DNA of 64,000 nucleotides from IMG/VR virus record IMGVR_UViG_3300031707_002920, positions 21,904 through 85,903 of that record; one strand, 5' to 3'. Numbering within the stretch: position 1 is the stretch's first letter; every line of letters starts with the position of its first letter. The translations under genes were made by a program, and so were the position numbers. This stretch comes from a virus. The notes under the pieces were generated by a model. It saw nothing but the letters and a program-made list of their open reading frames with translations, had not been told where the DNA came from and did no database searches. Shown piece by piece: positions 4,706-46,991 of the stretch.

Positions 4706-4715
4706 CTATTTCAAT

Positions 4716-4785: not shown

Positions 4786-4809
4786 TATTGCTATTTCTAG
4801 TAAAATGAT

Positions 4810-6554: not shown

Positions 6555-6564
6555 TTAGATTAAT

Positions 6565-7122: not shown

Positions 7123-7139
7123 CTAAACAAGGAGGAGTC

Positions 7140-7355: not shown

Positions 7356-7357
7356 TT

Positions 7358-29372: not shown

Positions 29373-30632
29373 ATGAAACTCGTACACAAATTTAACTATA
29401 GAAAGAAAAACATTGAGCTGGATACTTTGTGTAGAGTGTCTAATGATATCTATAATCAAGCGAATTATACCATAAAACAGGAGCTAAATAAATCTGGTAA
29501 ATGGATACGATATAACGAGCTAGACCAAATAATGAAAGTCACAGAGAATCTAGAGCACGAGATAAATTATAGGAAACTAAAAGCACAGGCGGCTCAGCAA
29601 ACATTAAGGATGCTGGATAAAAACTGGAACTCTTATTTCAGAGCACTCAAACCGTTTAAAAAGGATCCCAATAAATTTACCGGTCAACCGAGACCTCCTA
29701 GATTTCTAAAACGTGGGAGCATAAATTTACTAGTTTATACTAATCAATGCTCCCAAATAAAGGATAATAAAATAGTATTAGAAGAAAACATATCCATAGG
29801 AATACCCGAGGTAGATAAAGATTTTAGTAAATTTAATCAGATAAGAATTTTGCCGAGAAAAAATAGATATGAGATAGAGATAGTCTATAGCGTAGATTGT
29901 GCCAATTTAGAACTAGATCAGAACAATTATTTATCAATAGATTTGGGAGTCAACAATTTAGCGGCTTGTATTTCTAAAGATAAATCTTTTCTTTTAGACG
30001 GCAAACCTATTAAGTCTATAAATCAGTTTTTTAACAAAACTCTTGCAAAGAATAGATCTTTCAGAGACAAAAAAGGAGGCGGAGCATGCCGTAGAAAATC
30101 AAACGAACTAAGTAATTACAGAGAGTTTTTTATCAGGGATCAGTTTCATAAAATGACGAGGCTTCTTGTAAATTATTGCATAGTGAAAAACATTGGTACT
30201 ATAGTTTGTGGGTATAATAAGCGATGGAAAGACTCCATCGATATTGGTAAAGTTTCGAATCAGAAGTTTACCAACATACCTCATAAACTATTTTTGAAGA
30301 TGTTAAAATACAAATGTAATTTAGTAGGCATTGTGTTGATTTGTAAAGAGGAGTCATACACATCTAAGTGCGATGGACTAGCATTAGAGCCCGTAAAAAA
30401 GCACAAAGTTTACTTGGGCAAGAGGATTAAGAGAGGGCTTTTTCAGAGCTCTGTTGGAAAGCTTATCAATGCTGATATTGGTGGGTCTTTAAATACACTT
30501 AGAAAAGTAATCGGTGATGGTTCCTTTATCAGGGATCTAATCGATAGTGTGGTTCTGTTTAACCCAGTGAAGATAAGGTTTGCGGATTTAAGCTGCAAGC
30601 AGACTCTTTCAAATTTTTTGGTTAGATGTTAA
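29373..30632 (+). CDS. TnpB-like RNA-guided nuclease (IS1341 type)
   Basis: The 419-residue protein has the OrfB central region. SIDLGVNNLAAC near residue 191 supplies RuvC-I Asp, ICKEESYTSKC contributes a Glu, and INADIGGSLNTLRK supplies RuvC-III Asp. The usual RuvC-II Glu position reads VCGYNKRWKDS, as in the TnpB branch with a relocated catalytic Glu. The four-Cys zinc finger is absent. I see no flanking IS hairpins. It sits immediately right of the cassette array. Confidence 0.8.
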   Translation: MKLVHKFNYRKKNIELDTLCRVSNDIYNQANYTIKQELNKSGKWIRYNELDQIMKVTENLEHEINYRKLKAQAAQQTLRMLDKNWNSYFRALKPFKKDPNKFTGQPRPPRFLKRGSINLLVYTNQCSQIKDNKIVLEENISIGIPEVDKDFSKFNQIRILPRKNRYEIEIVYSVDCANLELDQNNYLSIDLGVNNLAACISKDKSFLLDGKPIKSINQFFNKTLAKNRSFRDKKGGGACRRKSNELSNYREFFIRDQFHKMTRLLVNYCIVKNIGTIVCGYNKRWKDSIDIGKVSNQKFTNIPHKLFLKMLKYKCNLVGIVLICKEESYTSKCDGLALEPVKKHKVYLGKRIKRGLFQSSVGKLINADIGGSLNTLRKVIGDGSFIRDLIDSVVLFNPVKIRFADLSCKQTLSNFLVRC

Positions 30633-30837: not shown

Positions 30838-31806
30838 ATGCTGCGTTGTCAAGAATCTGCGAAGCTTCAGCTCAAGCAAAGTTTCAAAAAAGTCATTCTG
30901 ATAGATGCAAATCATTTATTGAGCAGGACATTTCATGTACCGTCATTTCAAAATTTAAAAGCTACAATTGATGGCAATGAAGTGTTCACTGGCGCTACGT
31001 ACGGTTTCTTATGGTCGCTCAAAAAAATAGTAGATACACATAGGCAACTTAATGATGTATTAATAGTCGTCTGGGACGGTGGCGGTAAAAATTTCAGGCA
31101 CGAACTTAGTGCAGACTATAAAGCTACTAGGGCTAAAAAAACACCAGAATTCTTGTTCCAAGTCGGTCTGACTAGGGACGTACTGAAAACATTAGGAATA
31201 ATGCAGTGTCAGATGCCTAATACAGAAGCTGATGACATTATCGGCGTATTGACAAAGCAAGCTAGATTGAAAGGTTATAAAGTCCTCATCATTTCGGGCG
31301 ATAAGGATTTCAACCAATTAGTCAGTAACAATGTTTCAGTATTACATCCCGGTTCTGGTCAAAGTGAAGATAAATTGATGACCCCTGATGTGATTAAAGA
31401 AGAGTATGGTATTTCGCCCAATCAATTTATCGATTGGTTAACTTTACAAGGAGATGGTTCGGATAATATCGCCGGAATCGAGGGTATAGGTAAAAAGACT
31501 GCGTCAGAATTGATTCAATGTAATGGTACGATAGAGAATATAATTAGTTCTGATATTCATTACAAGTTTAATCGGAAAGGGTTAAAAAAAGAAATAAGTG
31601 ATAACTTGCAACAAAAGATAAACGCATCTAAAGATAAGCTTAAATTATCAAAACAATTAGTGACAATTAAGACGGATATAAAAGATTTAGACGTTAATGT
31701 AGAACAAAGTAAGCCAGACTTCTCTCATTTAAGAGATTTATTTAAGACGTATAAGTTTTCTACGATCTTGCAAAAATTCAATGAATTCATAACTACGTTT
31801 TCATGA
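30838..31806 (+). CDS. 5'-3' exonuclease (PolI N-terminal / FEN family)
   Basis: VILIDANHLLSRTF (residues 19-32), VVWDGGG, AADDIIGVL-like TEADDIIGVL and ISGDKDFNQLV supply the metal-binding Asp residues of the FEN active site. DGSDNIAGIEGIGKKTASEL is the helix-3-turn DNA-binding motif. At 322 residues it is a stand-alone flap nuclease like T5 or T4 RNase H, removing RNA primers. Confidence 0.92.
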   Translation: MLRCQESAKLQLKQSFKKVILIDANHLLSRTFHVPSFQNLKATIDGNEVFTGATYGFLWSLKKIVDTHRQLNDVLIVVWDGGGKNFRHELSADYKATRAKKTPEFLFQVGLTRDVLKTLGIMQCQMPNTEADDIIGVLTKQARLKGYKVLIISGDKDFNQLVSNNVSVLHPGSGQSEDKLMTPDVIKEEYGISPNQFIDWLTLQGDGSDNIAGIEGIGKKTASELIQCNGTIENIISSDIHYKFNRKGLKKEISDNLQQKINASKDKLKLSKQLVTIKTDIKDLDVNVEQSKPDFSHLRDLFKTYKFSTILQKFNEFITTFS

Positions 31807-31835
31807 TACAATGTTTGATCTAATAAAGAAGAAAA

Positions 31836-32027
31836 ATGTCAGAAATAATTTGTAAAGGATGCAATAGAAGAACAATAACATCACTATCTATAGGGCCCTT
31901 TGAAAAAGAAGCCATAGAATGTTATGTAGCTCTTGAAAATGGACAAATTGTTAAAGGATGTGGCTACGAACGTGCGGATATTTTTTATAAAGAACTTGCT
32001 GATAAATATTTGAAAGATAATGCGTAG
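31836..32027 (+). CDS. Small zinc-ribbon protein, 63 aa
   Basis: ATG 31836 follows AAGAAG. ICKGCNRRT near the N-terminus and VKGCGYERAD near the middle give three to four metal ligands. A truncated relative with the same start (VCKGCGRNS) is at 63780. Unknown. Confidence 0.6.
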   Translation: MSEIICKGCNRRTITSLSIGPFEKEAIECYVALENGQIVKGCGYERADIFYKELADKYLKDNA

Positions 32028-32031
32028 TTAA

Positions 32032-32145
32032 GTGCATTCAAATATTTTTTTGCGAGAATATTATCTGCATGACATCTTTGAAGCTGTTAACACTTACTAC
32101 TACGATGCAATAAAATATGTAAAATTTATAGCGCAAGCAGTATAG
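32032..32145 (+). CDS. Possible 37-aa protein
   Basis: From GTG 32032 an open frame reads ...LREYYLHDIFEAVNTYYYDAIKYVKF.. to TAG 32143-32145. The sequence looks coding, with an amphipathic aromatic helix, but the ribosome binding site is weak. It may be a gene remnant. Confidence 0.3.
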   Translation: MHSNIFLREYYLHDIFEAVNTYYYDAIKYVKFIAQAV

Positions 32146-32208
32146 AATAAAACCGTAGTATAAAAGTTGGTTGTAGTATAACTTTTAACTTAACAGCAGG
32201 AGGTTTTC

Positions 32209-32586
32209 ATGGCTAAAGAAGGGAAAGTCAAGAAACAACGTCGGTCAAAGGCTGAACAATTCCGTATGCCTGATCTCATTACGGTTGTTCAAGATGTAAC
32301 CAGTCTTTCACGTCGTGAGTCGAAAGTAGCTATTCAGGCTGTGGTTTATGCTATTAAGAAAGGTTTGATAGAGAAAGGTTACGTAAAGATCCCAGGTTTT
32401 GGCAAGTTTGTCAAGATTCATAAGAAAGCTACAGAGCGCAAATCATTCGGTAAAATGACCAAGATTCCTGAAAAAGATGTTGTGAAATTCCGCCCGCTAA
32501 AGAGTCTGAAGCTGCTTGTCAACGGTGCTATTGAGCTTGAAAAGTATGTTGAAGAAGAAGAGACAGCCGGCGACGACAAAAAGTAA
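32209..32586 (+). CDS. HU/IHF-family histone-like protein
   Basis: ATG 32209 follows a strong GCAGGAGG. Residues 20-75 follow the HU fold: DLITVVQDVTSLSRRESKVA helices, then GYVKIPGFGKFVKIHKKA strands and the DNA-binding arm region. The N-terminus is basic and the C-terminus acidic, extending the usual 90 residues to 125. It is followed by a terminator, suggesting high separate expression for DNA organisation. Confidence 0.85.
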   Translation: MAKEGKVKKQRRSKAEQFRMPDLITVVQDVTSLSRRESKVAIQAVVYAIKKGLIEKGYVKIPGFGKFVKIHKKATERKSFGKMTKIPEKDVVKFRPLKSLKLLVNGAIELEKYVEEEETAGDDKK

Positions 32587-32615
32587 ATTGATCCTTAAAG
32601 ATTAACATCGATTCA

Positions 32616-32650
32616 CAAAGGCTGGTGCATTTTTGCATCAGCTTTTTTTT
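32616..32650 (+). terminator. Intrinsic terminator after the HU-like gene
   Basis: AAAGGCTGGTGCA/TGCATCAGCTTT with a short T loop is followed by eight T. Confidence 0.83.
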
Positions 32651-32749
32651 CGTAAAGTAGAAGACCAAAATTGTAAAGAATTTTCTTAAATTATGAAGCA
32701 GGAATCTTGAATGCTTCCAATAAGCACTTAGAAAGTAGCAGGTTTTTGA

Positions 32750-33754
32750 ATGAATGAATTTAATTGTACAATGGCAACTTCATTTGAGCACGCATATATT
32801 CAGGCAATTGATGCATTAATGAGACTAGGTCAGACGTCATATCCAAGAGGTTTGGAAACAAAAGAATTAATATCATATATGCTTGGATTTGAAAATTCTA
32901 GAAAACGGTTGATATTTAATCCTGAAAGAAAAATCAATTTGGCTTTTATGCTCGCAGAATGTTTATGGATTATGAACGGTCGCGAAGATGTCGACATGAT
33001 TTCATTTTATAATTCAAAAATTAGTCAATTTTCAGATAATAGTCACACTTTTCATGGTGCTTACGGACCAAGACTTCGAAGATTACCTGATAAAAATCTA
33101 ATACCTCTTGACCAATTTCGATTAGTCATTGATAAATTAAAATCTGATTCTGATAGTCGACAAGCTATTTGCAACATATTTTTAGCAGGATCAGATTATG
33201 TTATTACAAAAGATGTACCATGCACGATAAGCTTTCAATTTTTACTTAGACGTAATAAATTGAACATGATAGCTAGCATGCGATCGAACGATGTACTTTT
33301 GGGGCTTAGCACTGACGTATATAATTTTTCGACAATTCAAGAAGTGATGGCTTCAGAGCTTGAAGTTGAACTGGGTTGGTATTATCACGTCGATGGTTCG
33401 TTACACATTTACAAAAAAGATTTTGAATGGGCGCAAAGAATATTAGCTAATAGTAGCAGAACAGTCAGCGAAATATTAGAAATGCCGCCGATGCCGACAC
33501 ATTCTCTACAATATGTGAAAATGCTCGGCGAATTTGAAGAACAGTTAAGGACTCGGACTGTGTTTATGGACGATTTGCCAGAATATTGGCATAAATGGTT
33601 GTTAGTGTTTGCGTGTTATAAATATCTTAAAGAAAATAATATTGATAAAGCAGAAGATTGTAATGACCGTATTGGTAAAGATCATCCATTTTATGTTTTT
33701 ATGAAGAGGAGTATTGATAGAAAACTTGCAAAACGAGCAGGTGAACATGAATGA
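32750..33754 (+). CDS. thyA: Thymidylate synthase family protein
   Basis: The 334-residue protein has YGPRLRRL, DSRQAICNIF, the catalytic Cys in DVPCTISFQF, SMRSNDVLLGL and DVYNFSTIQ. The usual His after the catalytic Cys is Thr, and the RSxD..G..xN spacing differs from ThyA. It could therefore be a dUMP hydroxymethylase rather than a methylase. The conserved Asn suggests a uracil substrate. Confidence 0.85.
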   Translation: MNEFNCTMATSFEHAYIQAIDALMRLGQTSYPRGLETKELISYMLGFENSRKRLIFNPERKINLAFMLAECLWIMNGREDVDMISFYNSKISQFSDNSHTFHGAYGPRLRRLPDKNLIPLDQFRLVIDKLKSDSDSRQAICNIFLAGSDYVITKDVPCTISFQFLLRRNKLNMIASMRSNDVLLGLSTDVYNFSTIQEVMASELEVELGWYYHVDGSLHIYKKDFEWAQRILANSSRTVSEILEMPPMPTHSLQYVKMLGEFEEQLRTRTVFMDDLPEYWHKWLLVFACYKYLKENNIDKAEDCNDRIGKDHPFYVFMKRSIDRKLAKRAGEHE

Positions 33755-33948
33755 TTCATTTTTAACAGCACTTACAGCACTTTTTAAAAAATATTCAAAA
33801 AAACAATTAGCGACAATGTCATTTGTAGAATTTACGATCTTGCGAGCGGGAAAGCCCACGACTTCAGTCGTGGGATGAAAGCGAGCAATAGATAAGTCGA
33901 ACTCTTCTATGAAAATATAGTATATTAGATAAACGGGAGGTATCTAAT

Positions 33949-34344
33949 ATGCCAAGATGGGACAAGTCAAACAAGGCGACCTATAATTTGGGATACCACT
34001 TAATCTGGTGCCCCAAGTACCGACGCAAAGTCTTGGTTGGAGATGTAGAGAAAAGACTCAAAGAGCTGTTCCATGAAAAGGCAAAGGAGCTTTCTATTTC
34101 TATTGAGAAAATGGAAGTCATGCCCGATCATGTTCATCTTTTCGTTAAATGCTCTCCAGTCAATTCTCCTCATCTGATCGTAAAGCACCTCAAGGGATAC
34201 AGTTCGAGAGTGATGAGGATAGAGTTCCCAAAATTGAAATCAAGACTCCCGTCACTGTGGACCCGATCCTACTACTGTGAATCGATAGGTCACATTTCAG
34301 AAGAGACAATCAAAAAGTACATCGACGACCAAAAGAACAAATGA
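33949..34344 (+). CDS. tnpA: IS200/IS605 TnpA, HUH (Y1) transposase
   Basis: The 131-residue protein has MPDHVHLFV (the HUH metal-binding His pair near residues 62-64) and KYIDDQKNK near the C-terminus with the catalytic Tyr. ATG 33949 follows GGGAGG. It overlaps tnpB by four bases. It would excise and insert the element as single-stranded DNA. Confidence 0.93.
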   Translation: MPRWDKSNKATYNLGYHLIWCPKYRRKVLVGDVEKRLKELFHEKAKELSISIEKMEVMPDHVHLFVKCSPVNSPHLIVKHLKGYSSRVMRIEFPKLKSRLPSLWTRSYYCESIGHISEETIKKYIDDQKNK

Positions 34345-35366
34345 TCCTCACAATCAAAATCAAACATGGAGTAGACCTATCTGTCGAGCTTGAAAAGGCT
34401 CGCCGGATAGCTGTGTTTGCTTTGAAGACTGGATCACGTAGCTCGAAGGACGTTAAACACTTCGGTCTGAAATCAGCGCTGTCAAATCAGGTGCTCAAAA
34501 AGTACAGCGCGAATAAAAAGCTCAAGAGAGTCAGTCGTGTCAAGCTCACGGTGCCTAACCAGTCTGTCAAGGCTGAATCTGAACAACTCTCTATCCCCTG
34601 TCTGAAGCTCAAACTCCCCACTGAGCACTTCAGGTATGAGTTTCAGAAAATCAACCAGATAGAACTCGACAAGACATACGCCTATATTACCGGAGAGGTC
34701 AAAGAGCCGGATCTGATTAAGTCTGAGAAGCACCTTGGTGTTGATCTGAATACCAAAGGCCACTGTGCTGTTATTGGAATTCCTTCTACTGGTGATGTTA
34801 TTAAGCTTGGAAAGAAAGCTCTCCACATTCACACCAAGTACAAAAGCATCAGAAGGAAACTACAGAGCAAGAAGAAGTATAGGAAGCTCAATCAGATCAA
34901 GCGAAGAGAGTCAAATATCGTCCGAGATTTGAATCACAAGATTTCAAAGAAGATAATCTTAACTGCAAAGGAGAATGGCTGCTCGATTAAGTTGGAGAAT
35001 CTCAAGGGAATTCGAAACAACAAAAAACAAGCTCGATCTTTTAAGTACTCCTTATCCTCTTGGTCTTATTTCCAACTACTGACGATGATTCAGTACAAGG
35101 CCAAAAAGTTTGGAGTAGATGTAGGCTTAGTTGATCCCCGCTACACTTCAAAAACGTGTAGTAGATGCGGGACTATAGGCATACGGCAAGATAAGAGCTT
35201 CACGTGTCCGTCATGTGGGCACGTAGATCATGCGGATGCTAATGCTGCCTTTAACATTGCAGCATGGCCTCTAATTGATCCATTGCATACAGACAGAGAT
35301 GTATGTAAAGGGAGCACTGATGCCCCGCAATGTGGAGTAGCCTTATCGAGCGGCGTAGCCGCATGA
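34341..35366 (+). CDS. tnpB: IS605 TnpB, RNA-guided nuclease
   Basis: In 341 residues the RuvC motifs are GVDLNTKG, KLENLKGI and HADANAAFNIA. The zinc finger is CSRCG..CPSCG. The order and spacing are complete, so it is probably active, guided by RNA from the right end and flank of the element. It has a shortened N-terminal region compared with 400-residue TnpBs. Confidence 0.92.
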   Translation: MILTIKIKHGVDLSVELEKARRIAVFALKTGSRSSKDVKHFGLKSALSNQVLKKYSANKKLKRVSRVKLTVPNQSVKAESEQLSIPCLKLKLPTEHFRYEFQKINQIELDKTYAYITGEVKEPDLIKSEKHLGVDLNTKGHCAVIGIPSTGDVIKLGKKALHIHTKYKSIRRKLQSKKKYRKLNQIKRRESNIVRDLNHKISKKIILTAKENGCSIKLENLKGIRNNKKQARSFKYSLSSWSYFQLLTMIQYKAKKFGVDVGLVDPRYTSKTCSRCGTIGIRQDKSFTCPSCGHVDHADANAAFNIAAWPLIDPLHTDRDVCKGSTDAPQCGVALSSGVAA

Positions 35367-35550
35367 TGAGCGCAATGGACACAAGAACCCCACGACTTTA
35401 GTCGTGGGAGTACGTCAGATAAAATAACTAAGCGTATTCTTTTATTTAAGCAATATTTAAAAAATTATAGTAGATAAAAACGTATACTATATAAATTATT
35501 ATCATACTCAAGCGCATTACGTTCAGCATTCTGTTTGCGAAAAGGATAAC

Positions 35551-37824
35551 ATGGACAAAGAAGAAATTAGACAGTTATTATATAAAACAGGCGATAAAAA
35601 AGATTTCGTCCATCTTCACTTACATAGTGATTTTTCGCTTAAAGATGGTATTGGTAAACCCAACCAATACGCTAAAAAAGCGCTTGAGATCGGAATGTCT
35701 GCATTAGCAATAACAGATCATGGTAGTATTGGCGCACATCCGTCATTTTTTATGTACTGTAGGTCGGTCAATTTGAAGCCGATTGTCGGTGTCGAAATGT
35801 ACATGCAAAATAGACGGTCAGAAGTAGAAGAATATGACAGGACGATTGATGAATTGAATAAAAAAATCAAGATTTTAAAACAATTTATCAAACGTAAAAG
35901 CGCGAGCAGACAAGTGTTTGAATCGTATGCTGATATCATTAGACAAATACTTGATATGCCAAGTGCTGAATTTGAAGATATTAATACATTAGATTTTTCA
36001 GAAGTTAAAGAAAAAATTAATGAGATAATTAAACATCGGCAGATCGAAGAAAAAGAGTATTCTAAAAATAGGGATATACTTAAGAAGAACCAGCATATTA
36101 TATTGATCGCCAAAAATGAAATTGGTCGAAAAAACATTACAAAAATCGTAAGCGATGCTGCCAGAAATGGATTTTATTATAAACCGCGTACTGCATTAGA
36201 TTTTATAGTCGAAAATAAAAGCGGTATAATCGTTACCACTGCGTGTCTCGCAGGTATAATTAATAACGAGATGTTACAGTTTGAAGACGAAAAGGCAGCA
36301 AGGACAATGGGATTAAATGTAGCTAAAAAGTATAAAGACATTTTCGGCGATGATTTTTATATTGAAATAATGATGATTGATATCGACAAGCAACGATTAG
36401 TAAATAAATTGTTATTAGAAATTGCAAAAGAATTAGATATAAAGTTTATCGTGACGAACGACGTCCACTACATTGACAAAGACGGCGCAAAAGCTCAAGA
36501 GATATCTTTAATGCTCGGCTCTAAAGATGAAGGCGAGCAGGTTACGATGAAAGATAAGAAGAGATTGAATGCCATGAGAGAGATATTAGATGCTATAGGA
36601 GAAAATAATTCGCCTGAACACGTTAGGGCAGTATATAACGATTTTATTGAGCTCGATCGGTTTAAAGAATTCAAGTCATCGAATAAAGAAACTAGTATCG
36701 TTTTTGATGAAATAATGGATATTGTTGTTGGTAAGAAAAAATTTAAAAAAGTGTGGGAGTTTTCTACTAAAGATTTTTGGTTTAAAGATCGACATCAGAT
36801 GATTGATGCTTATATAGATCAAGGTCATCATGAATATATTGAGATTGATGATTTTAGACAAGCGTTAGATAATACAATTAAAGTAGCAAATAAAGTCGAG
36901 ACATGGGATTGGGATACTACGGAGAAGTTACCAAAAATAGATACTGGTAATTTAAGTAGTTACGATTTTTTAGTTTCACTAACTAGAGAAGGTTGGTCAC
37001 GTAAAGCTGAAGAGCACTGGTATGATGAAAGTAGTGAATATGCTAAACGAGTTAAATATGAATTGAGCGTAATTAGACGGACGCAGATGGCAGATTATTT
37101 CCTCATTGTTGCAGATTATATTAAGTATGCTAAGTCCCATAATGTGCTGGTAGGCGGAGCAAGAGGGTGTTTCGTTCCAGACTCTTTAATTAGAATGGCA
37201 GATAATACAGTAAAGTCAATTCAAGATGTGCAAGTTGGAGATAATGTAAAAAATCTTTTTTTGCACGATGTTGAAGTTTGTAATAAATTCATTTATGAAA
37301 TCGAGGAAAATATTGTAGAATTAAAATTTGATGACAAGATCATTAAATGCACATGTGATCATAAGTTTTTAACTAAAAATAGAGGTTGGGTAAAAGCAAT
37401 AAATTTAACTGACACTGATGAAGTAGTATTATTTGATTTAGGATTTAAAAATTTAAGTGAATTTCAACGAGAAATTGTTCCAATTTCAAAAACAATCAAA
37501 TTAACATCTAAAAAAATAATTCCTTATAAAGGTAAAGTGTTTGATTTAGCTGTTAAATCAGATGATAAGTCTTATAATGTGCAAGATATTGTTGTTCATA
37601 ATTCTTCGTGCGGGAGCCTTGTCTGTTATTTACTTGATATCACGAACATTGATCCTTTGAAGCATGATTTGTTGTTTGAAAGATTTTTGAGTATGTCTAG
37701 GAGTATGGCTATATATGATTTAACAGTGTCTACATTTAAAGAAATAGATGACAAAGTTGAGTTATTTTTAGGCGATGACTTTGAAGATTGGTCGAATAAT
37801 AGACTTGTGAGGTTAAACGAATGA
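35551..37824 (+). CDS. dnaE: DNA polymerase III alpha, N-terminal part, with intein
   Basis: Residues 20-40 (FVHLHLHSDFSLKDGIGKP) begin the PHP domain, and TTACLAGIINN and NDVHYI follow. The extein reaches MADYFLIVADYIKYAKSHNVLVGGARG, is interrupted by an intein (37168-37602), and resumes SSCGSLVCYLLDITNIDPLKHDLLFERFLS. It stops before the catalytic PDIDxDF, which is in the next gene. Extein length is about 612 residues. ATG 35551 follows AAAAGGATAAC. Confidence 0.9.
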   Translation: MDKEEIRQLLYKTGDKKDFVHLHLHSDFSLKDGIGKPNQYAKKALEIGMSALAITDHGSIGAHPSFFMYCRSVNLKPIVGVEMYMQNRRSEVEEYDRTIDELNKKIKILKQFIKRKSASRQVFESYADIIRQILDMPSAEFEDINTLDFSEVKEKINEIIKHRQIEEKEYSKNRDILKKNQHIILIAKNEIGRKNITKIVSDAARNGFYYKPRTALDFIVENKSGIIVTTACLAGIINNEMLQFEDEKAARTMGLNVAKKYKDIFGDDFYIEIMMIDIDKQRLVNKLLLEIAKELDIKFIVTNDVHYIDKDGAKAQEISLMLGSKDEGEQVTMKDKKRLNAMREILDAIGENNSPEHVRAVYNDFIELDRFKEFKSSNKETSIVFDEIMDIVVGKKKFKKVWEFSTKDFWFKDRHQMIDAYIDQGHHEYIEIDDFRQALDNTIKVANKVETWDWDTTEKLPKIDTGNLSSYDFLVSLTREGWSRKAEEHWYDESSEYAKRVKYELSVIRRTQMADYFLIVADYIKYAKSHNVLVGGARGCFVPDSLIRMADNTVKSIQDVQVGDNVKNLFLHDVEVCNKFIYEIEENIVELKFDDKIIKCTCDHKFLTKNRGWVKAINLTDTDEVVLFDLGFKNLSEFQREIVPISKTIKLTSKKIIPYKGKVFDLAVKSDDKSYNVQDIVVHNSSCGSLVCYLLDITNIDPLKHDLLFERFLSMSRSMAIYDLTVSTFKEIDDKVELFLGDDFEDWSNNRLVRLNE
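37168..37602 (+). other. Mini-intein 1 in DnaE N-part (145 aa)
   Basis: It starts CFVPDSLIRMADN, has a TCDHKFLT block and ends VQDIVVHN before Ser of the extein. The first Cys, the terminal His-Asn and the following Ser are all present. No room for a homing endonuclease. Confidence 0.9.
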
Positions 37825-38015
37825 AATTTCGTTTTTTAAAAGATGTCACAGTTTATAGTTGCATAATAATATAGATTTTAGTAAGTTATCATCATTTTTG
37901 AATAATTAAATTATGAACATGCGATGAGCCACAATTCACAAGGTTTTAACTCTCGATGGTTATGCTCACTAAAAATAATTGTTGACAATAAACTGGAGTG
38001 TTATACATTAAGATT
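37825..38015 (+). other. Gap between the two polymerase genes
   Basis: About 190 bases with stops in all frames. A 17-codon frame (MKFRFLKDVTVYSCIII) starts in the ATGA overlap after the first gene. TTGACA occurs at 37982-37987. I do not see intein ends here, so I do not call trans-splicing. Confidence 0.4.
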
Positions 38016-41000
38016 ATGAATAAAGCCATAACAAAATTAGATTATATACAATATCTTTGTGAGCGAAAGTTAAAAAATTTATCATTAGAAAACGATGAAT
38101 ACATTCAACAACTTGAAAGAGAACTTACAAATATTGACGTGCAAGATTTGCAAGATTATGTGATTAATTTGATTAAAAACAAGACAAAAATTGACAGACA
38201 TGGTTCGTTAATCTATTATCTTATTGGCGTGTCTGATATCGATCCAATTAAAAATAAAATACCTATTAAAGTTAAAAAACAGTCTTCGTTTCCCGATATT
38301 GACTCAGATTTTAGCATGAATGAAAGGGAAGAAGTCGTAAAGTATTTCATTAATAAATATGGAAGTGATCACGTCGCGCCGATTGGATCGTATGGTCAAA
38401 TGAAAATGAAAATGGTTATGAGAGATATTGCTAGGATTTTTGATGTAGATTTAAATGACACGAATGAAGTTGTAAAAAATCTTGGCGAAGATGTTGATGC
38501 AATGACAGAAGAAGAATTTGATGTAGCAATTGCTATCGAACCAGGCGAAGACGGTTTCAGGAACGATTTATATGAATTGAGAAAATATCTCGAACGACAT
38601 CCTGAAGTACGAGAAATATTATTCAAACTTAAAGGTCAATTGCGACATCTTACCAAACATCCTGCCGGCGTGGTTGCGACTCCTACCAAAATTGATGAGA
38701 CGATTCCATTAATGAGGCACAAAGACGAACTTATAACTAGTTGGGTTGACGGCATTACTCGAAAAGATTTACAATCTTCGGGCTTCATAAAATTCGATAT
38801 TTTGGGACTTAAGACATTGACGATTATTAAAGAAATTCTTGAACTTATTAGGAATCGTAAGTCGTATAATAAAAATGCAGACTTTGATCTTCAGTCAATT
38901 GATAGAGGTCAAATAACGTCATTACTTTATGAAGAATTTTCAAGCAAATTACCGTTAGACGGTAATGACATTATTTATGAAAGATTCAGAAATACAGATA
39001 CTAATGGCATTTTTCAATTTGAATGTATTGCCGGCGATTCATGGATCGGTAATTATAGAATAAAAGAGTTATACAAAGACTTTTTGAGAGGACCGGTACA
39101 TAAAATTGGATGTGTAGACATTAAGAAAAAAAGAAAAATTAGACAAATTGTTTACGCGATGAAGAAACAAGAAAGAGAAGTATATCGAGTGGTTGTCGAT
39201 TATGATAATAGATGCATTGAAACTTCTATTTTGCACGAATATTATACTCCGAAAAGTTGGAAAAAGCTGCAAGATTTGAAAATCGGTGATAAGATACTTA
39301 TCGACACTGAAAGATGTAGGACTCAATATTATTGTCCTGTCTCACAAACAGTGATGGATGTGTTAGGCATTAAAACTGGTTGTGAAGAATGTATTAAAAA
39401 CGGCAAGAGAATCTGTAAAACGCAAGTATTGAAAAAATTTAGACAAGTTAAAATTCGATATAAATTCGTTAAAATAAAGCAAATTGATTTTGTGGGCCTG
39501 AAAGAGGTTTATGATATTGGATTTTCAAACAAGCAACATCGCAATTACGTCGCAAATGGGTTCGTAGTTCATAATAGTAATTTAATGAAATCATTACTCA
39601 GAGAGATTAAGCCGACTACATTTAATGATATTACTTCTACTACTGCGTTAGGTCGACCGGGACCTTTAGACATGGGCATGCATCATGAATATGCTCAGAG
39701 AAAAAATGGGAAAAAGTTTGATTTTGGATCGCCATTAATTGAAAAATGTTTAAAAGACAGTTTTGGCATATTAACATATCAAGAAGACGTAATGAGACTA
39801 TGCAACATCGTCGCAGGATTTCCATTAGATTTAACTGATACAGTTAGAAAAAATTTGATGAAATCTATCAGAGATAAAGATGCGAAAGATAAAGAAGCAA
39901 AACAGAGAAAAGAAATTCATGAAAAATTCATCAGAGGCTGTGTTGAGCGAGGCCTTAAAGAGCAAATTGCTGAATCGTGGTGGCAAAGTTGTGTATCATT
40001 TGCTCGCTACGGGTTCAATAAGTGTTTAACTGGCGATACTGTTCTTACAAGATGTAACGGCAATCAACATACAAAAAGAAATATTACAATTAGAGAACTA
40101 TATTCAGCCTATAGATCAGACACAAAGGTCGGACAAAAGTATAGAAGATCTGGTTATCCAATAATACATTCAATGATTGATGGTAGAATTAAGATTGAAA
40201 AAATAAAAGATATAGTTTACAATGGTAGAAAGCCAGTATTTAGAATCACAACAGATAATGGGTTCAGTATTAAAGCTACTGACATTCATAGATTTTTAAG
40301 TGAGTTTGGTTGGAAGATGGTTAAAGATTTCAACATTAGTGATTTGATAGCAATTACATTACAAGAATATGATGACTATAAACGAATAGGTTATTATGAT
40401 ATGGATCGAACAAAACGATATGAAAAAGGGTTTGAAGTAACTTATGCAAAAATTGTCAGTATTGAACTTGTTGGTATTGAAGATGTTTATGATGTTGAAA
40501 TGTATGGCGATGAACACAATTTTGTAGCAAATGGATTTATAAGTCATAATTCTCACGCTGTAGCGTACACTGTTCTCAGTTATCAAATGATGTGGTTTAA
40601 AGTGTATTATCCGTTAGAATTTTATGTAGTGTTGTTATCAAATTCAATTAAAGAGAAGTTCGTCGATTATTTTTCCGAGATAATGGGTAAGGGCATCAAC
40701 ATTGTTCCGGCAAATATTAATAAATCAAAAGAAGGATTTACAATACACGGTGAAGATAATAGCATAATGTTTGGATTGGGATATGTCATAGGAGTAGGGC
40801 CGGCAATTATTAATGTAATCACTCAGACACAACCGTTTGATTCATTTATAGATTTTTGGCATAAAACAGAGAGGATTAAAAAAATTGGTAAATCTGCTAT
40901 TGTCGCACTAATAAGTGCTCATGCATTTGATGACTTTGGAGCTCAAAATGAGATGTTAGAAAAGTATTATAAAGTCATTAGACAAGATACAAAATGGGAA

Positions 41001-41528
41001 CGTGATATTGATTATAATGACCGTAGATATGAACACGAGCAATTTGTTGAAGCGTATAGTTTAGATTGGCGAACAAAATTATCAGATAAACAAAAGGCAG
41101 AAGTAACTAAGCTAAATGCTAAATTGTTGACAAAATTAGTGCAACCTAAAGCTAACATGAAAAAAACGATATGGGGCATTATTACTGGTATAATCGAAAA
41201 AACTAGTAAAAACGATAATAATTATTTTTATGTGATGTTGACAGATTCAAAATTTAATATTGTAAAAATCAGAATTCCTTGTTATAATAAAAGATGTAAA
41301 TACGCATTTATTCTTAATCAAGAGTCAGGAAAATATAGGAAAGTACCAGTTCAAGACGTTATTAAAATGGATAATATTTTAGTAGGAGATGCCGAAACAA
41401 GCGAATATATGGATAGAATATTTATTGATTTGTTTGACATTTGTTGCGTGGGTAACGTATATGAGAAAACGATAGAACAAATAGAAAAATTAGCAAAATA
41501 TGACAAGATAGCTGCAGAAGAAGAATAA
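38016..41528 (+). CDS. dnaE: DNA polymerase III alpha, catalytic and C-terminal part, with two inteins
   Basis: ATG 38016 is used; a GTG at 37998 overlaps GGAG. The first 90 residues include GSLIYYLIGVSDIDPIKN, which partly resembles the end of the N-part. The catalytic FPDIDSDF follows at residues 92-99 and KFDILGLKTL supplies the third Asp. Extein sequence continues through AALGRPGPL-like TTALGRPGPLD and YGFNKSHAVAY to a C-terminal region of about 400 residues. Extein length about 810. Inteins at 39024-39575 and 40023-40550. Confidence 0.92.
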   Translation: MNKAITKLDYIQYLCERKLKNLSLENDEYIQQLERELTNIDVQDLQDYVINLIKNKTKIDRHGSLIYYLIGVSDIDPIKNKIPIKVKKQSSFPDIDSDFSMNEREEVVKYFINKYGSDHVAPIGSYGQMKMKMVMRDIARIFDVDLNDTNEVVKNLGEDVDAMTEEEFDVAIAIEPGEDGFRNDLYELRKYLERHPEVREILFKLKGQLRHLTKHPAGVVATPTKIDETIPLMRHKDELITSWVDGITRKDLQSSGFIKFDILGLKTLTIIKEILELIRNRKSYNKNADFDLQSIDRGQITSLLYEEFSSKLPLDGNDIIYERFRNTDTNGIFQFECIAGDSWIGNYRIKELYKDFLRGPVHKIGCVDIKKKRKIRQIVYAMKKQEREVYRVVVDYDNRCIETSILHEYYTPKSWKKLQDLKIGDKILIDTERCRTQYYCPVSQTVMDVLGIKTGCEECIKNGKRICKTQVLKKFRQVKIRYKFVKIKQIDFVGLKEVYDIGFSNKQHRNYVANGFVVHNSNLMKSLLREIKPTTFNDITSTTALGRPGPLDMGMHHEYAQRKNGKKFDFGSPLIEKCLKDSFGILTYQEDVMRLCNIVAGFPLDLTDTVRKNLMKSIRDKDAKDKEAKQRKEIHEKFIRGCVERGLKEQIAESWWQSCVSFARYGFNKCLTGDTVLTRCNGNQHTKRNITIRELYSAYRSDTKVGQKYRRSGYPIIHSMIDGRIKIEKIKDIVYNGRKPVFRITTDNGFSIKATDIHRFLSEFGWKMVKDFNISDLIAITLQEYDDYKRIGYYDMDRTKRYEKGFEVTYAKIVSIELVGIEDVYDVEMYGDEHNFVANGFISHNSHAVAYTVLSYQMMWFKVYYPLEFYVVLLSNSIKEKFVDYFSEIMGKGINIVPANINKSKEGFTIHGEDNSIMFGLGYVIGVGPAIINVITQTQPFDSFIDFWHKTERIKKIGKSAIVALISAHAFDDFGAQNEMLEKYYKVIRQDTKWERDIDYNDRRYEHEQFVEAYSLDWRTKLSDKQKAEVTKLNAKLLTKLVQPKANMKKTIWGIITGIIEKTSKNDNNYFYVMLTDSKFNIVKIRIPCYNKRCKYAFILNQESGKYRKVPVQDVIKMDNILVGDAETSEYMDRIFIDLFDICCVGNVYEKTIEQIEKLAKYDKIAAEEE
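39024..39575 (+). other. Mini-intein 2 in DnaE C-part (184 aa)
   Basis: It begins CIAGDSWIGNYRI after FQFE and ends RNYVANGFVVHN before Ser. An extra Cys-rich patch (YCPVSQTV...CEECIKNGKRICK) lies inside. No LAGLIDADG motif. Confidence 0.92.
40023..40550 (+). other. Mini-intein 3 in DnaE C-part (176 aa)
   Basis: It begins CLTGDTVLTRCNG after YGFNK, contains TDIHRFLSE and ends HNFVANGFISHN before Ser-His. No endonuclease domain. Confidence 0.92.
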
Positions 41529-41577
41529 TTTACTTTAACGTCTTAAATTTGATGTGTTTTTCTGTATATAATATATC

Positions 41578-42138
41578 ATGATGGGAAAAAAAGGCAAACA
41601 AGTAGATTCATTTAAAGTACAATTGTCAGTTCGACAAGAGACATTAGAGATTGATATAAATGACAAATTATATATTCCATCAATCGATGTTTTAACACCT
41701 GCAAAAGCATGTAATATGATGGCTGAGAATCCTGCATTACATGCAAGATGGAACGTGCTTGCTAACGAAGCAGCGATGGATTTTGATAAAGAAAAAATGG
41801 AATTTGATATATGGGTTAAAGAAAGATCAAAACATTATAGAGAAGATTTAGCTGATGTGCTAGGTGGCAAAAGGATAACAGATAAAATGGTTGAAGAATC
41901 TGTGATGACTGATCCAGAATACATGAGGCGTTATAAACAAGTTTTAGAGAAAAAGAAAGATGCTGCAAATATAAGGTCTATTTCATTTGGATTCGGTGAA
42001 CGGGGCGAACGATTAGTCAACATTGTATCAATGATGAAGTCTGAAAAACCATCATCAAATATTAGAAGACAAGACGATGATGATAAAAATGCATTTACTG
42101 ACAGCCCATATCCTATGGATGATACGACTGAAGATTAG
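41578..42138 (+). CDS. Probable recombination/SSB-associated protein, 186 aa
   Basis: The protein lies between the polymerase and the SSB gene. It has LEIDINDKLYIPSIDVLTPAKA, NPALHARWNVLANEAAMDFDKEK and an acidic end. The helical middle and location recall phage recombination mediators of the UvsY role, but I assign it from context only. ATG 41578; little intergenic space on either side. Confidence 0.5.
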   Translation: MMGKKGKQVDSFKVQLSVRQETLEIDINDKLYIPSIDVLTPAKACNMMAENPALHARWNVLANEAAMDFDKEKMEFDIWVKERSKHYREDLADVLGGKRITDKMVEESVMTDPEYMRRYKQVLEKKKDAANIRSISFGFGERGERLVNIVSMMKSEKPSSNIRRQDDDDKNAFTDSPYPMDDTTED

Positions 42139-42178
42139 AAAAATATGAAAACAAACACAATTAACAAAGGAGTCAGTT

Positions 42179-43441
42179 ATGCACGATGATAACCCGTGGG
42201 CAAAAGAATATGAAGAAAATGCACCGAGAACTAGACGATCTGATATTACAGGTATGACGTGGAAACAGGGTGACAACACTATTCGCATCCTTCCGAATCC
42301 AAAGGGTGGTTTGCCGTTCGTAAAATATACTGTACACTGGATTCCAATGAAGACTAGTAAGAATAATCGGCCAATCATTCACGATGTTAAATTTAAATGT
42401 CCGGTTTGCGAGTTCGTAGGATCATTATGGAGCGAAGTGTATCGGCTTAAAGAAGAAGAAGGAATGACTGATAAAGATCCAGAAATTCAGAAACTGTTAA
42501 AACAAATTGGTGTTTTTCGTGGTAAAAAGACGTATGATATGAATGTCATACATCGAGAAGATTATCGCGCAGACGATTCTAAAATTAAAATTAAAAGATT
42601 AGTTGCAGGACCGACTATTTGGAAACCGATTATCGAACTCGGTAATAGTTCAAAATGGGGGAATCCTTCGACTGCAAGCGCGAAAGGGTATGACTTAACG
42701 ATAACTGTAGATGGTGAAAAACTAAAAAGAGAATATACAGTGCTTCCTGATTCTGAAAGAAAAGCGTTGACAGACGAAGAAATGACGGCTGTTAAAGAAC
42801 GCGCTTATGATCTTGCAAAATTAAGAGTGTTTTCGTCACCTACAGAGATGCTGGATGTCATTGAAAATTCTAAACCACCGCTTGATGGTATCAGTCTGAA
42901 AAAATTGAGAAAATTAATAAAAGGTGATGATGAAGAAGAAACGTCGACGGTTGGTCATGTAAATGAAGAAGATACTCAAGAACGTGCAACTGATACTGAC
43001 GATGATGACGACGATACAACTCCGGCGACTGCTACAGCGTCAATTGCAAAGGCACCGGCACCGGCAAAAGCAACGCCTGATGACGACGATGACAAGGACG
43101 TACCAGATCCAGATGATGACGATGATGACGACAAGACAAAAAAAGAAGTAGCAGAATCGAAAAAAGATTCAAAAGCATTTACAGAAGCAAATGAACCGGC
43201 GGCTGAGTCTGACGATGCTACTGTGACTTTAAATAATATGGATTGTCGTGGTACTTATGATCCTGAAGATATCGGTTGTCAAGATTGCTCATTAGCTAAT
43301 GAATGTCAAGAATTGAAAAAAGAAAAAGAAAAAGCAGCTGTGCCAAAGACGATGGGCAAACAAGGGAAAGCTGGTAAGCAGACCGAAACTACACCTGATG
43401 CAAAACCGGTCGATTCTCCAAAACGTAAATTACCGTTTTAA
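42179..43441 (+). CDS. Single-stranded DNA-binding protein, gp32-like
   Basis: ATG 42179 follows AAAGGAG. An N-terminal region (WKQGDNTIRILPNPKGGLPF) and KCPVCEFVGSLWSEVY with YRLKEEEG fit phage gp32-type SSBs with a zinc knob. From about residue 255 there are three Asp runs, an Ala/Pro linker and a second Cys set (DCRGTYDPEDIGCQDCSLANEC), ending RKLPF. The acidic segments and hydrophobic tip would recruit partners such as the RecA and polymerase encoded next to it. 420 residues, longer than gp32. Confidence 0.85.
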   Translation: MHDDNPWAKEYEENAPRTRRSDITGMTWKQGDNTIRILPNPKGGLPFVKYTVHWIPMKTSKNNRPIIHDVKFKCPVCEFVGSLWSEVYRLKEEEGMTDKDPEIQKLLKQIGVFRGKKTYDMNVIHREDYRADDSKIKIKRLVAGPTIWKPIIELGNSSKWGNPSTASAKGYDLTITVDGEKLKREYTVLPDSERKALTDEEMTAVKERAYDLAKLRVFSSPTEMLDVIENSKPPLDGISLKKLRKLIKGDDEEETSTVGHVNEEDTQERATDTDDDDDDTTPATATASIAKAPAPAKATPDDDDDKDVPDPDDDDDDDKTKKEVAESKKDSKAFTEANEPAAESDDATVTLNNMDCRGTYDPEDIGCQDCSLANECQELKKEKEKAAVPKTMGKQGKAGKQTETTPDAKPVDSPKRKLPF

Positions 43442-43448
43442 ATTCAAC

Positions 43449-43484
43449 AAAAGTGAGTATTAATTTATAGTACTCACTTTTTTT
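43449..43484 (+). terminator. Intrinsic terminator after SSB
   Basis: AAAAGTGAGTA/TACTCACTTTT with an AT loop is followed by a T run. Confidence 0.87.
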
Positions 43485-43500
43485 TGAAAAGGAGATTAAT

Positions 43501-44850
43501 ATGTCTAATGATGAAAATATTGAAATCGAAAGTGAAGAAGAGTCTTTAGATGAAAGTTCGGGAAGACGTAAAAAAGAACGAAAACTAATGACTGTGACTG
43601 CTGCTGCTATAATACAAAAACGTTTTGGTCGATCGATTGTACCTGCTGGCAATAAATATAAAGATTTACCGAAAGCGATATCTACTGGTTCAATACTTCT
43701 CGATAATGCGATAGGACCTTGTAAGGGCTATCCATACGGTTCGGTAATCGAAGTTTTTGGCTGGGAAGGCGCAGGCAAAACGTTAATGCTTTATCTTGCA
43801 ATCGCTGAATCTCAGAGAAATTGTCCTGAAAAACCATGTGTATTAATTGATGCTGAACGTCAATTTCAATTTCAGGCAAAATGGGCTGCCCAAGTCGGTG
43901 TTGACATTGAGAAATTAATTGTTATTCCCGTGTCCACAGCTGAAGAGGCATTTGACATAATGCATGCTCTCGTTCTTGGCGAACACGAAGTCGATAAAAA
44001 GACTAATCAAGTCGTTCGAGTCATTACGCCCGGTAATTATGCGATCATCGGTATTGATAGCGTCACCCAATTAGTGTCGACCACTGACGCGACAAAAGGT
44101 ATGGAACAAACTAGACAGAGAGGGACACAAGCATCTGCTATCGGTCTCGGTCTTAAAAAAGTTACATCAGCAATGGCCAGGTCAGACGTCGATTCAAAAA
44201 CCATATTGTATTTCATCAATCAACTAAGGAAAAATCCAAATAAGCGATTTGGCAATCCCGAATACAGAACAGGCGGAAACGCACTACCTTTTTATGATAC
44301 GATTGCAATTAAAGTGGCAAAAGTATGGGATTCAGAGGTAAGAAATGAAAATAGTGAAATAATATCTCACGATGTAAAAGTCACATTTGAGAAGAATAAA
44401 GCAGGTTCAATGCCAGAAGAAGCAATAGTATTTACATTGAAACATGATGGTACAGGCGTTGATAACCAAAAAGAATTATTTGATGTCGCAATGTTGAATG
44501 GTATTTTGAAAGAATTTGAAGTACAAAAAGACGACAAAGTCGTTTTACGATATAATTTTGTTAATGAAAATGGCGAGAAATTATATCCTGATCTTAAAGA
44601 CTTTGGCAAAAAGAAGTTTGAAACAGTTTTAGATGAAAATCCAAAGATTAAAGATAGAATTCAACTATTGATTGAAGATAAAAAAATATTTGTTAAAAAA
44701 GACAATGTAAAAGAGACTATTCCTGAATCAGTATATTCTGACAGTGAAGAAGACGAAACAGAAACAATTGAAGACGCTGAAGAAAATCTTGAAGATAAAG
44801 AATCTAGAAGAGACAGACGAGAAAAGAAAAGATCACTCAAGATCAAATAA
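43501..44850 (+). CDS. recA: RecA/UvsX-type recombinase
   Basis: ATG 43501 follows AAAAGGAG. Walker A GWEGAGKT is at residues 87-94, Walker B region NYAIIGIDSVTQL, and loop-2 region RNPNKRFGNPEYRTGGNALPFY. The N-terminus and the C-terminus (residues 405-449) are highly charged and acidic, then basic. It forms filaments on ssDNA for strand exchange. Neighbouring SSB, Mre11 and RuvC complete a recombination set. Confidence 0.93.
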   Translation: MSNDENIEIESEEESLDESSGRRKKERKLMTVTAAAIIQKRFGRSIVPAGNKYKDLPKAISTGSILLDNAIGPCKGYPYGSVIEVFGWEGAGKTLMLYLAIAESQRNCPEKPCVLIDAERQFQFQAKWAAQVGVDIEKLIVIPVSTAEEAFDIMHALVLGEHEVDKKTNQVVRVITPGNYAIIGIDSVTQLVSTTDATKGMEQTRQRGTQASAIGLGLKKVTSAMARSDVDSKTILYFINQLRKNPNKRFGNPEYRTGGNALPFYDTIAIKVAKVWDSEVRNENSEIISHDVKVTFEKNKAGSMPEEAIVFTLKHDGTGVDNQKELFDVAMLNGILKEFEVQKDDKVVLRYNFVNENGEKLYPDLKDFGKKKFETVLDENPKIKDRIQLLIEDKKIFVKKDNVKETIPESVYSDSEEDETETIEDAEENLEDKESRRDRREKKRSLKIK

Positions 44851-45187
44851 TTATGGATAAGCATCAAATCCTTTATCAACTATCTCAAGTATATTGTCGA
44901 TTAATGCCATCTAACATTTCGGGCGTAGGCGTCTTTGCGATCAAACTAATTCCCCAAGGAACTGATCCTTTTGTCGGATGCTTCTCTGACGAGTATATAG
45001 AGGTAACATCACAAGAATTACAGACAGTTGATCTCGCTGTGCAAGCATATGTTAAAGACATTTGCGCTTTCCAAGAGGGTAAGTATTTTTTACCATCGTG
45101 CGGGATACCACGAATTGATATGTCATTTTTTCTAAACCACTCTTTCCATCCTAACATGCAATCATTCGATTTGGGTGATAAATTTAT

Positions 45188-46450
45188 GCTCCTGTGAGCG
45201 AGAAAACCCACGGTTTTAACCGTGGGATGAAAGCGAACCAGTACTATCTATTAAAAATAGTCATACTCTTTGTGCAAAATGTAGTATATTACCTCTAATG
45301 CGCAAAACTTTCAAATACCGATTATACCCCACCAAACTTCAAATCACCAAAATGAATAACATTTTGGAACAAACTCGTTGGGTCTACAATGAAACTCTTG
45401 CACTCAGAAAAAACGCCTGGGAAATTGAAAAGAAATCTATATCCCTTTATGATACAGCTAATAAACTTCCTGAATGGAAAGCCAATAAACCTGAGCTGAG
45501 TGACGTGTATTCTCAGGTACTTCAGAATGCCCAGATACGCGTAGATCTTGCTTTCAAAGCCTTCTGGAGACGCTGTAAATCTGGAGAGAACCCTGGTTTC
45601 CCTCGGTTCAAAGGAAAGGGATGGTACGACTCTATCACCTACCCCCAGTCTGGATTCAGACTTCACTCTGACGGAGTCTACCTCTCTAAAATAGACCGAG
45701 TTCCTATTGTTTTTCATAGACCTCTTGAGGGTACCATCAAAACCTGTACAGTTAAAAAGACTCCTACCGGAAAATGGTTTGTGTATTTCTCTTGTGAAAC
45801 AAAAAGACCAGAGTCCCTTCCAAAAACTGAGAAAATAGTTGGAATTGATCTTGGACTTCTCACCTACGTTCAATGTTCTGACGGGTCGAAGATAGATAAA
45901 CCTCGCTTTTTCAAACAGGAGCAAGAGGCTCTTGCTCAAGTTCAGAGAAGATTTTCTAAAAACAAGAGCCCCATAAACAAACACTCTGTAGCTCTTGTGC
46001 ATGAGCGCATTAGAAACAAGAGAGAGGACTTTTGCCACAAAGTTTCGAAAAAACTGGTTGATAAGTATGATTTTATCGCACATGAAAATCTGAACGTGAA
46101 AGATATGTTGGAGCAGAAGAAATTCAGTAAGAGTATCTCTGATGCTGCCTGGAGTACACTGATACAGTTTCTGATCTACAAAGCTGAAAACGCTGGTAGA
46201 ATCAGAGTAGCAGTGGACCCAAGGGGTACGAGTCAGAGATGCTCTCAGTGTGGGTCGGTGGTGAGTAAAGATTTAAGTGTTAGAGTACATCACTGTCCTC
46301 ATTGCGGTTTCAAAACGGGTAGAGACCTGAACTCTGCACTTGAAATACTCAGACTCGGGCTGGAGTCTGTTGAGCGACCCCCGCATCGCCGTAAGGCGAA
46401 AGCACTGGTGAGGGCTCATAGAAGCCCACGACTTTAGTCGTGGGAGCAGT
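45188..46450 (+). mobile_element. IS605-family element with tnpB only (1263 bp)
   Basis: The left hairpin is CCCACGGTTTTAACCGTGGG and the right hairpin CCCACGACTTTAGTCGTGGG. It is inserted after TTTAT. It lacks tnpA, so HUH transposase would come from another copy, such as 33949. The 331-bp remnant at 3226 is its deletion derivative. Confidence 0.9.
45298..46437 (+). CDS. tnpB: IS605 TnpB, RNA-guided nuclease
   Basis: This 379-residue protein is complete. The N-terminal helix-turn-helix (FKYRLYPTKLQITKMNN) is followed by RuvC motifs GIDLGLLT, AHENLNVKD and GRDLNSALE, and the zinc finger CSQCG..CPHCG. Start ATG 45298 has no strong binding site, typical of tnpB. The end of the gene overlaps the right-end hairpin, where its guide RNA would originate. 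Confidence 0.92.
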   Translation: MRKTFKYRLYPTKLQITKMNNILEQTRWVYNETLALRKNAWEIEKKSISLYDTANKLPEWKANKPELSDVYSQVLQNAQIRVDLAFKAFWRRCKSGENPGFPRFKGKGWYDSITYPQSGFRLHSDGVYLSKIDRVPIVFHRPLEGTIKTCTVKKTPTGKWFVYFSCETKRPESLPKTEKIVGIDLGLLTYVQCSDGSKIDKPRFFKQEQEALAQVQRRFSKNKSPINKHSVALVHERIRNKREDFCHKVSKKLVDKYDFIAHENLNVKDMLEQKKFSKSISDAAWSTLIQFLIYKAENAGRIRVAVDPRGTSQRCSQCGSVVSKDLSVRVHHCPHCGFKTGRDLNSALEILRLGLESVERPPHRRKAKALVRAHRSPRL

Positions 46451-46520
46451 CACACAACATATATAGATATAGACATAAACAAACGAGAATTTTTGCTAAA
46501 GACACATGATGGGAAGTTGC

Positions 46521-46991
46521 ATGGCAGGGACTTGTAAATATTGTGGTTTTAGCGGCACTCACGAAATGCTGGCAGATCATGCATGTCATTGTCCTGCTGA
46601 AACATCTCCATCTGACGCCATAGCGAAAAAGATGACGAATGTTAAGTTTATAGGAAGTTTTCAAGGACTTCTTGCAAAAGGACATATTTTTACAGTTACG
46701 TCGATACAAACGACCATTTACAAAAATAAAGAAAAGAGTGCTAATCGTAGATGTTGGGGTTGGTTTCCAACAGAAAAAGAAGCTAAGCACGCAGTCGACA
46801 TAAATGCAGGTGATATGATGGAAATATCTTATACGTATGTAGTCATTGAAAAGCATCCTGCAGGAATTTTAGTAGAACCTGTAGTAATTGCTTGGTATAA
46901 ATGGACAGGTCGATATCCCAAAGGCAAAATTTGGAAACGATGCAAAGCTCCAGAATGGGCTGAAGGTACAATTGGGTGGGGGTTTGGATGA
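46521..46991 (+). CDS. Unknown zinc-knuckle protein, about 156 aa
   Basis: ATG 46521 follows GGGAAG; ATG 46506 in frame is the alternative. CKYCGFSGTHEMLADHACHC forms a C2H2-like module at the N-terminus. The rest is beta-rich with many aromatic residues (RRCWGWFPTEKEA, IAWYKWTGRYPKGK). It overlaps the next gene by four bases. Not recognised. Confidence 0.6.
   Translation: MAGTCKYCGFSGTHEMLADHACHCPAETSPSDAIAKKMTNVKFIGSFQGLLAKGHIFTVTSIQTTIYKNKEKSANRRCWGWFPTEKEAKHAVDINAGDMMEISYTYVVIEKHPAGILVEPVVIAWYKWTGRYPKGKIWKRCKAPEWAEGTIGWGFG

Follow-up and report, generated by a model that had tools for sequence, protein, structure and literature searches.

To our knowledge, DNA replicases almost always have their catalytic palm in one chain. 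In the fold of DNA polymerase III (Pol III), the deoxynucleoside triphosphate (dNTP) site includes the GRGS loop, and metals are held by the aspartates of PDxDxD and KFD. We analyzed a Pol III alpha (family C) that is encoded by two genes, here called A and B, in a stretch of viral DNA of 64,000 nucleotides (the window), which is part of the 85.9 kb virus record IMGVR_UViG_3300031707_002920. The closest undivided forms are the DnaE proteins of Geobacillus phage GBK1, Moorella phage MTATph1, Streptomyces phage LukeCage and LR756511. They share the domain order, motifs and fold of the window pair, but consist of one chain, in whose palm GRGS and PDxDxD occur together, whereas the window uses two chains.

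Split forms of Pol III alpha are already known. For jumbo phages of group 2.2, one paper describes a “minimal” split Pol III alpha whose NTP-binding and Mg-binding subdomains are encoded by two genes, and proposes that an active enzyme is reconstituted from them (Iyer et al. 2021, PMC7824862). The window pair is similar in its division into NTP-binding and Mg-binding parts, in its use of two genes and in its occurrence in jumbo phages. However, as described there, the minimal form is devoid of the remaining Pol III domains, and thus of PHP, and occurs beside a family B polymerase. By contrast, our gene A has an active-looking PHP domain, gene B has fingers and HhH, and no PolB or PolA was matched in the records searched. 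Moreover, both of our proteins contain a palm segment (palm-1) that is degenerate in a reciprocal manner, a property that the available text of PMC7824862 does not mention.

The split dnaE of cyanobacteria (Synechocystis, Npu) likewise consists of two genes, and its catalytic subunit contains inteins. In that case, an intein itself is interrupted, and trans-splicing yields a single chain again. In the window, by contrast, it is extein sequence that is interrupted, there are no intein halves and the chains overlap in sequence. A further similarity exists with Trichodesmium erythraeum, for which several inteins were reported in a split dnaE (Liu & Yang 2003, cited in PMC5874633). An earlier note on the window, made from the sequence alone, had called its three inteins a dense concentration for one phage protein. 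The three inteins are present, but such a density has a precedent in Trichodesmium. We found no description of an overlapping, complementary split Pol III alpha in open-licence full texts, a set that mostly leaves out subscription papers. What differs from the known cases is the full domain set, the lack of PolB in the searched records and the reciprocal, conserved duplication.

A palm segment present in both genes

Pfam and NCBIfam models for PHP (PF02811, 1.9e-35) and hidden Markov models for inteins match gene A, as does the beginning of PF07733 (1.1e-25). For gene B, the matching models are PF07733 (6.5e-37), HHH_6, Intein_splicing and one for the Pol III finger domain. The DnaE domain set (PHP, PF07733 palm/NTPase, finger and HhH) is therefore complete, but distributed over the two genes, which together are one Pol III alpha, as the earlier note had proposed. 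Its estimate of about 190 bases between the genes agrees with the 191 bp that we count to the ATG of gene B; an alternative GTG start at 37998 would give a product of 1176 amino acids (aa) ending at 41528. The features are as follows, in window coordinates.

35551..37824, + strand: gene A, PHP and palm-1 of DNA polymerase III alpha (757 aa; 612 aa without intein a)
35611..36372, + strand: PHP domain (Pfam PF02811, 1.9e-35; conserved columns)
37156..37167, + strand: GARG of the dNTP-binding GxRGS motif, resuming as SS at 37603-37608 past intein a; counterpart of E. coli GPGRGS
37168..37602, + strand: intein a, a mini-intein of 145 aa at GARG/SS (Pfam, motif reading)
37705..37821, + strand: tail of A past FERFLSMSRS, standing where the catalytic strand would be; no PDxDxD (alignments)
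37825..38015, no strand: gap between genes A and B (191 bp to ATG 38016; 173 bp to GTG 37998)
38016..41528, + strand: gene B, with degenerate palm-1, catalytic palm, thumb, fingers, HhH and C-terminal part (810 aa without inteins b and c)
38016..38291, + strand: degenerate second palm-1 copy in B, without the GRGS loop (BLASTP, hhalign, motif alignment)
38292..38312, + strand: catalytic strand PDIDSDF, counterpart of E. coli D401 and D403
38790..38798, + strand: KFD, with the expected third catalytic aspartate
39024..39575, + strand: intein b, a mini-intein of 184 aa at FQFE/SN, with a conserved four-Cys insert
40023..40550, + strand: intein c, a mini-intein of 176 aa at FNK/SH (TIGR01445/TIGR01443, PF14890)

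The polymerase had been described in the earlier note as broken just before PDIDxDF. That is not the whole picture, as palm-1 occurs in both genes, is reciprocally degenerate and is conserved in this state across phages. The PF07733 profile is covered by A over positions 3-66 and 57-99, and is also aligned with B from position 2, overlapping A's share; the palm-1 segment is therefore present in both proteins. The two copies resemble each other by BLASTP (E=1e-4, 26% identity) and by profile-profile comparison with hhalign (P=96%, E=1.9e-9). A's copy keeps GARGS and FERFL and continues into a tail that has no PDxDxD. In B's copy, neither the GRGS loop nor FERFL is left, and PDIDSDF comes next. 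A alone thus has GRGS, and B alone has PDIDSDF and KFD; the full set of catalytic motifs is reached only by the pair.

Four other viral contigs, L007, L009, L010 and L011, carry the pair with identical boundaries and together with the window constitute a close family. In ascending order, the lengths of these contigs are 14.1, 62.8, 330 and 416 kb. In their best segments, these relatives are 63-73% (A) and 66-77% (B) identical to the window proteins. All five A proteins contain G.[GA]RGS and lack PDxDxD, and all five B proteins lack GRGS and contain PDIDSDF. K259, F260 and D261 of B are invariant in this family, and we take D261 to be the equivalent of E. coli D555. A scan of genome contigs found no bacterial relatives.

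The anatomy recurs in a more distant relative (L029) of about 30% identity, and searches started from it led to a second family, F2. In F2, 33 A loci contain GPGRGS, and in none is it followed downstream by PDxDxD. GRGS is likewise missing from all of the 21 B loci, whose palm-1 copy has N(Q/E)NNLL at this position. The order of motifs around palm-1 is alike in the alignments of both families. Five F2 records (70-381 kb) each contain exactly two PF07733 halves, at positions 2-98 and 100-259.

B's palm-1 copy is under purifying selection. Its pN/pS ratio (the nonsynonymous relative to the synonymous proportion, quoted since dS, the synonymous rate, is close to saturation) is 0.16-0.23, similar to the rest of B. 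The tail of A has a ratio of 0.24-0.28, similar to the rest of A. That relatives keep the two-piece design suggests a working two-part enzyme, and not a broken gene.

The PHP domain of A also appears intact. The signature of active PHP proofreading exonucleases is HHDHEH[C/H]DH (PMC12926913), and all nine of its residues are present in A (H21, H23, D32, H57, E82, H182, C232, D304 and H306), aligned and invariant in the five close genomes.

A proposed composite active site and its alternatives

We consider it likely that A and B form a heterodimeric main replicase whose composite active site is divided inside the palm. Because neither protein has both motif sets, a heterodimer with a shared site is the simplest working enzyme. 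In this mechanism, A would have to lose intein a, and B would have to lose inteins b and c, before the chains assemble. A, which has lost the catalytic PDxDxD strand, would hold the dNTP triphosphate with its GRGS loop. B, which has lost that loop, would supply the metal-binding PDIDSDF and KFD. The active site would then form between the chains, with dNTP-binding residues of A facing metal-binding residues of B, and B's retained palm-1 copy could act as a structural brace. Given that the nine signature residues are kept, the PHP domain with its intact metal site may enable A to proofread as well.

Searches for other polymerases fit a role as main replicase. The earlier note had named a second intact polymerase as the finding that would contradict it. 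We found no second or intact PF07733 polymerase in the 85.9 kb record, and the A/B pair is the sole match in the 330 and 416 kb relatives. In these three records, PolA (PF00476) and PolB (PF00136) have no match. PF00136 is also without a match in the ten records searched with it, including the window record, and in the five F2 records with two halves, where it was the only model used.

Some points weigh against a shared active site. B's own palm-1 copy might fill the place assigned to A's GRGS, since the HGSL of B in the window's family could partly stand in for this motif, although F2 B proteins read NNLL there. The genomes of both families are all metagenomic and may be incomplete. Finally, the absence of PolA and PolB rests on PF00136 and PF00476 (in F2 on PF00136 only), with PF03175 and primase-polymerases lying outside the search.

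The first of these points leads to an alternative in which B polymerizes alone, its shortened palm-1 with HGSL binding the dNTP, and A, with its PHP, serves as a distinct subunit for proofreading or as a scaffold, its palm part merely docking. At the position of GRGS, B proteins of the close family do keep GS, and the HGS is invariant among them. B's copy is also under purifying selection and is predicted to fold; in AlphaFold2 models, the block of B residues 1-80 is mostly confident, with a predicted local distance difference test score (pLDDT) of 77-95. However, the NNLL of F2 has no GS to offer, and the GRGS that is invariant in A would be functionless there. We therefore regard polymerization by B alone as unlikely, though it deserves more weight than the explanations that follow.

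A and B could also end up as one chain, through a split intein, an RNA intron or ribosomal bypass of the gap. For dnaE there is a precedent in cyanobacteria, where the Trichodesmium split is reportedly due to a split intein, and in one distant viral relative (L025) a split intein lies exactly before SFPDIDSDF. Nevertheless, the end of A and the start of B have no intein halves, and the resulting chain would hold palm-1 twice. The genes in relatives are also spaced differently, with a short overlap in L007, two open reading frames (ORFs) between them in L009 and L010 (ThyX being one of those in L010) and about five in L011. These unrelated ORFs exclude a single read-through product in the relatives that have them. 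Similarity of the window's gap to the small ORF of relatives is very weak at best (E=0.11). We rejected a split intein linking A to B, as its halves are missing, and an RNA intron in the gap, since no Rfam model matches at gathering thresholds and relatives have other genes there. On this evidence, any such joining is very improbable.

Another explanation is that B begins with an unrelated helical domain that resembles palm-1 by chance. The single-sequence similarity is indeed modest, at 26% identity. By contrast, the profile comparison is strong (E=1.9e-9), PF07733 aligns with B from position 2, both families share the motif order, and the top Foldseek matches of the A and B models are Pol III alpha structures. 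We see hardly any room for this explanation. The B model is weak past residue 240, which leads to low global TM-scores (template modeling scores), and in the model of A alone the tail (572-615 in L009) has a pLDDT <50.

That a frameshift, insertion or assembly error simply broke one gene is the least credible explanation, to which we give almost no weight, for although an IS200/605 element immediately precedes A and the gap is short, four contigs from other metagenomes have the identical split and boundaries, the distant family is split as well, and pN/pS is low on either side of the break. Conservation and low pN/pS likewise rule out a pseudogene, and conservation rules out an artefact unless one error was common to all the assemblies.

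Undivided relatives and the origin of the division

On balance, we favor an origin in which one replicase active site came to be spread over two chains from overlapping gene copies by complementary loss in the palm, was selected in at least two jumbo-phage lineages, possibly after evolving twice, and left B's copy as a brace. This would probably have started from duplicate or overlapping copies of dnaE, each of which lost a part that the other kept. If this is true, an essential enzyme was turned into a heterodimer by duplication and complementary loss, with the shared scaffold kept in both subunits, and it could be a natural template for switchable split polymerases. Since annotation pipelines would take such genes for truncated or broken ones, fewer cases may be on record than exist.

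An undivided relative of F2 (L144, 1183 aa) occurs in the 595 kb phage LR756511 and has GPGRGS and PDVDVDF in one chain. We used the approximately unbiased (AU) test on a tree of the catalytic core to relate it to the two divided families (F1 and F2). A grouping of F1 and F2 without L144 is rejected (p=2e-34). A clade of F1, F2 and L144 is not rejected (p=0.12), and neither is F2 without L144 (p=0.31). Therefore, one origin with a later re-fusion and two separate origins are both compatible with this tree.

About 70 other distant viral DnaE proteins are mostly undivided, a tally that covers the best 80 of 236 distant loci. The exceptions are L016, in which PHP is split off, and L024 and L025, which have split inteins. 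In L016 (5848-7440), our reading of the sequence is that PHP is detached from DnaE and fused behind a part resembling uracil-DNA glycosylase. The L025 dnaE (1404-7537) is in three pieces via two split inteins, with the aforementioned break before SFPDIDSDF as one of the two. Free-standing ORFs between its pieces encode a GIY-YIG endonuclease and a Cys-rich product. In F2, gene B of L122 (12802-16872) is fractured by a split intein, and the 343 aa ORF between the halves has a PDxxF...ExK motif that is similar to the insert of intein a in L007. The annotation of Bacillus phage KLEB27-3 divides dnaE (L143, 2864-7234) into two genes, which flank one for an HNH endonuclease. This interruption is probably an intron or intein, unlike the arrangement in the window.

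Inteins and replication surroundings

The three inteins of the window have the lengths (145, 184 and 176 residues) and insertion sites given in the earlier note, and none has a match to an endonuclease domain in Pfam or NCBIfam, again as noted there. All three have Cys as their first residue and HN as their last two, and the next residue is Ser in each case. The block B motifs TCDH of intein a and TDIH of intein c correspond to class 1 Hint mini-inteins. In intein b of the window, SILH replaces TxxH at this position, whereas L009, L010 and L011 have the T. Any failure of splicing would presumably be fatal to the replicase.

The three inteins are not one trait, since intein b occurs in all five close genomes and a and c are sporadic. 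Intein b has no recognized endonuclease in any of the five. Its insert of four Cys (YYC, then C-x2-C, then C) is conserved in the window, L007, L009, L010 and L011, and splicing of this intein may be metal- or redox-dependent. Intein c is found in the window and L010 only, and the splicing parts of the two copies are 77% identical. The L010 copy carries an HNH domain (PF01844, above the cut-off) that the window copy does not have. Intein a is shared by the window and L007, and its site is empty in L009, L010 and L011. In L007 it is spread over two overlapping ORFs, possibly as a result of a frameshift error, and contains an insert that resembles an endonuclease and weakly matches PD-(D/E)XK.

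Site a is also occupied in F2 (L127, GRG/S), as is site c (L100 and L102, N/SHAVAY). Given that both are filled in the distant family too, they are recurrent homing sites. The intein site of cyanobacterial dnaE is presumably close to site c. The best explanation for the overall distribution is that intein b is an old, fixed passenger, intein c a disarmed homing intein and intein a a bare remnant. Across the five close phages, the decay of inteins can be traced in one gene, from copies with and without HNH to a split copy with an endonuclease-like insert and an empty site. In fractured genes, split inteins occur with free-standing homing endonucleases. Relatives exhibit this arrangement in intein a of L007 and in the dnaE of L025 and L122, whereas the window inteins are unsplit and lack endonucleases.

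Genes A and B lie within a replication set (30838-50649) that includes a FEN-type 5′-3′ exonuclease, an HU-like protein, thymidylate synthase, a single-stranded DNA-binding protein similar to T4 gp32, RecA and RuvC. Together with the Pol III replicase, these genes make up a mixed set. Around these genes are three TnpB-type (IS605 OrfB/Cas12f-like) genes, at 29373-30632, 33949-35366 and 45298-46437, and TnpA accompanies one of them, directly upstream of gene A. Elsewhere in the window, we noticed 12 tRNA genes at 156-5192 and a transfer-messenger RNA (tmRNA) gene at 8893-9304 (Rfam 1.8e-48), for which ARAGORN predicts the tag ANTGAVLGAKFATQFAVLCGLTSQVSVA.

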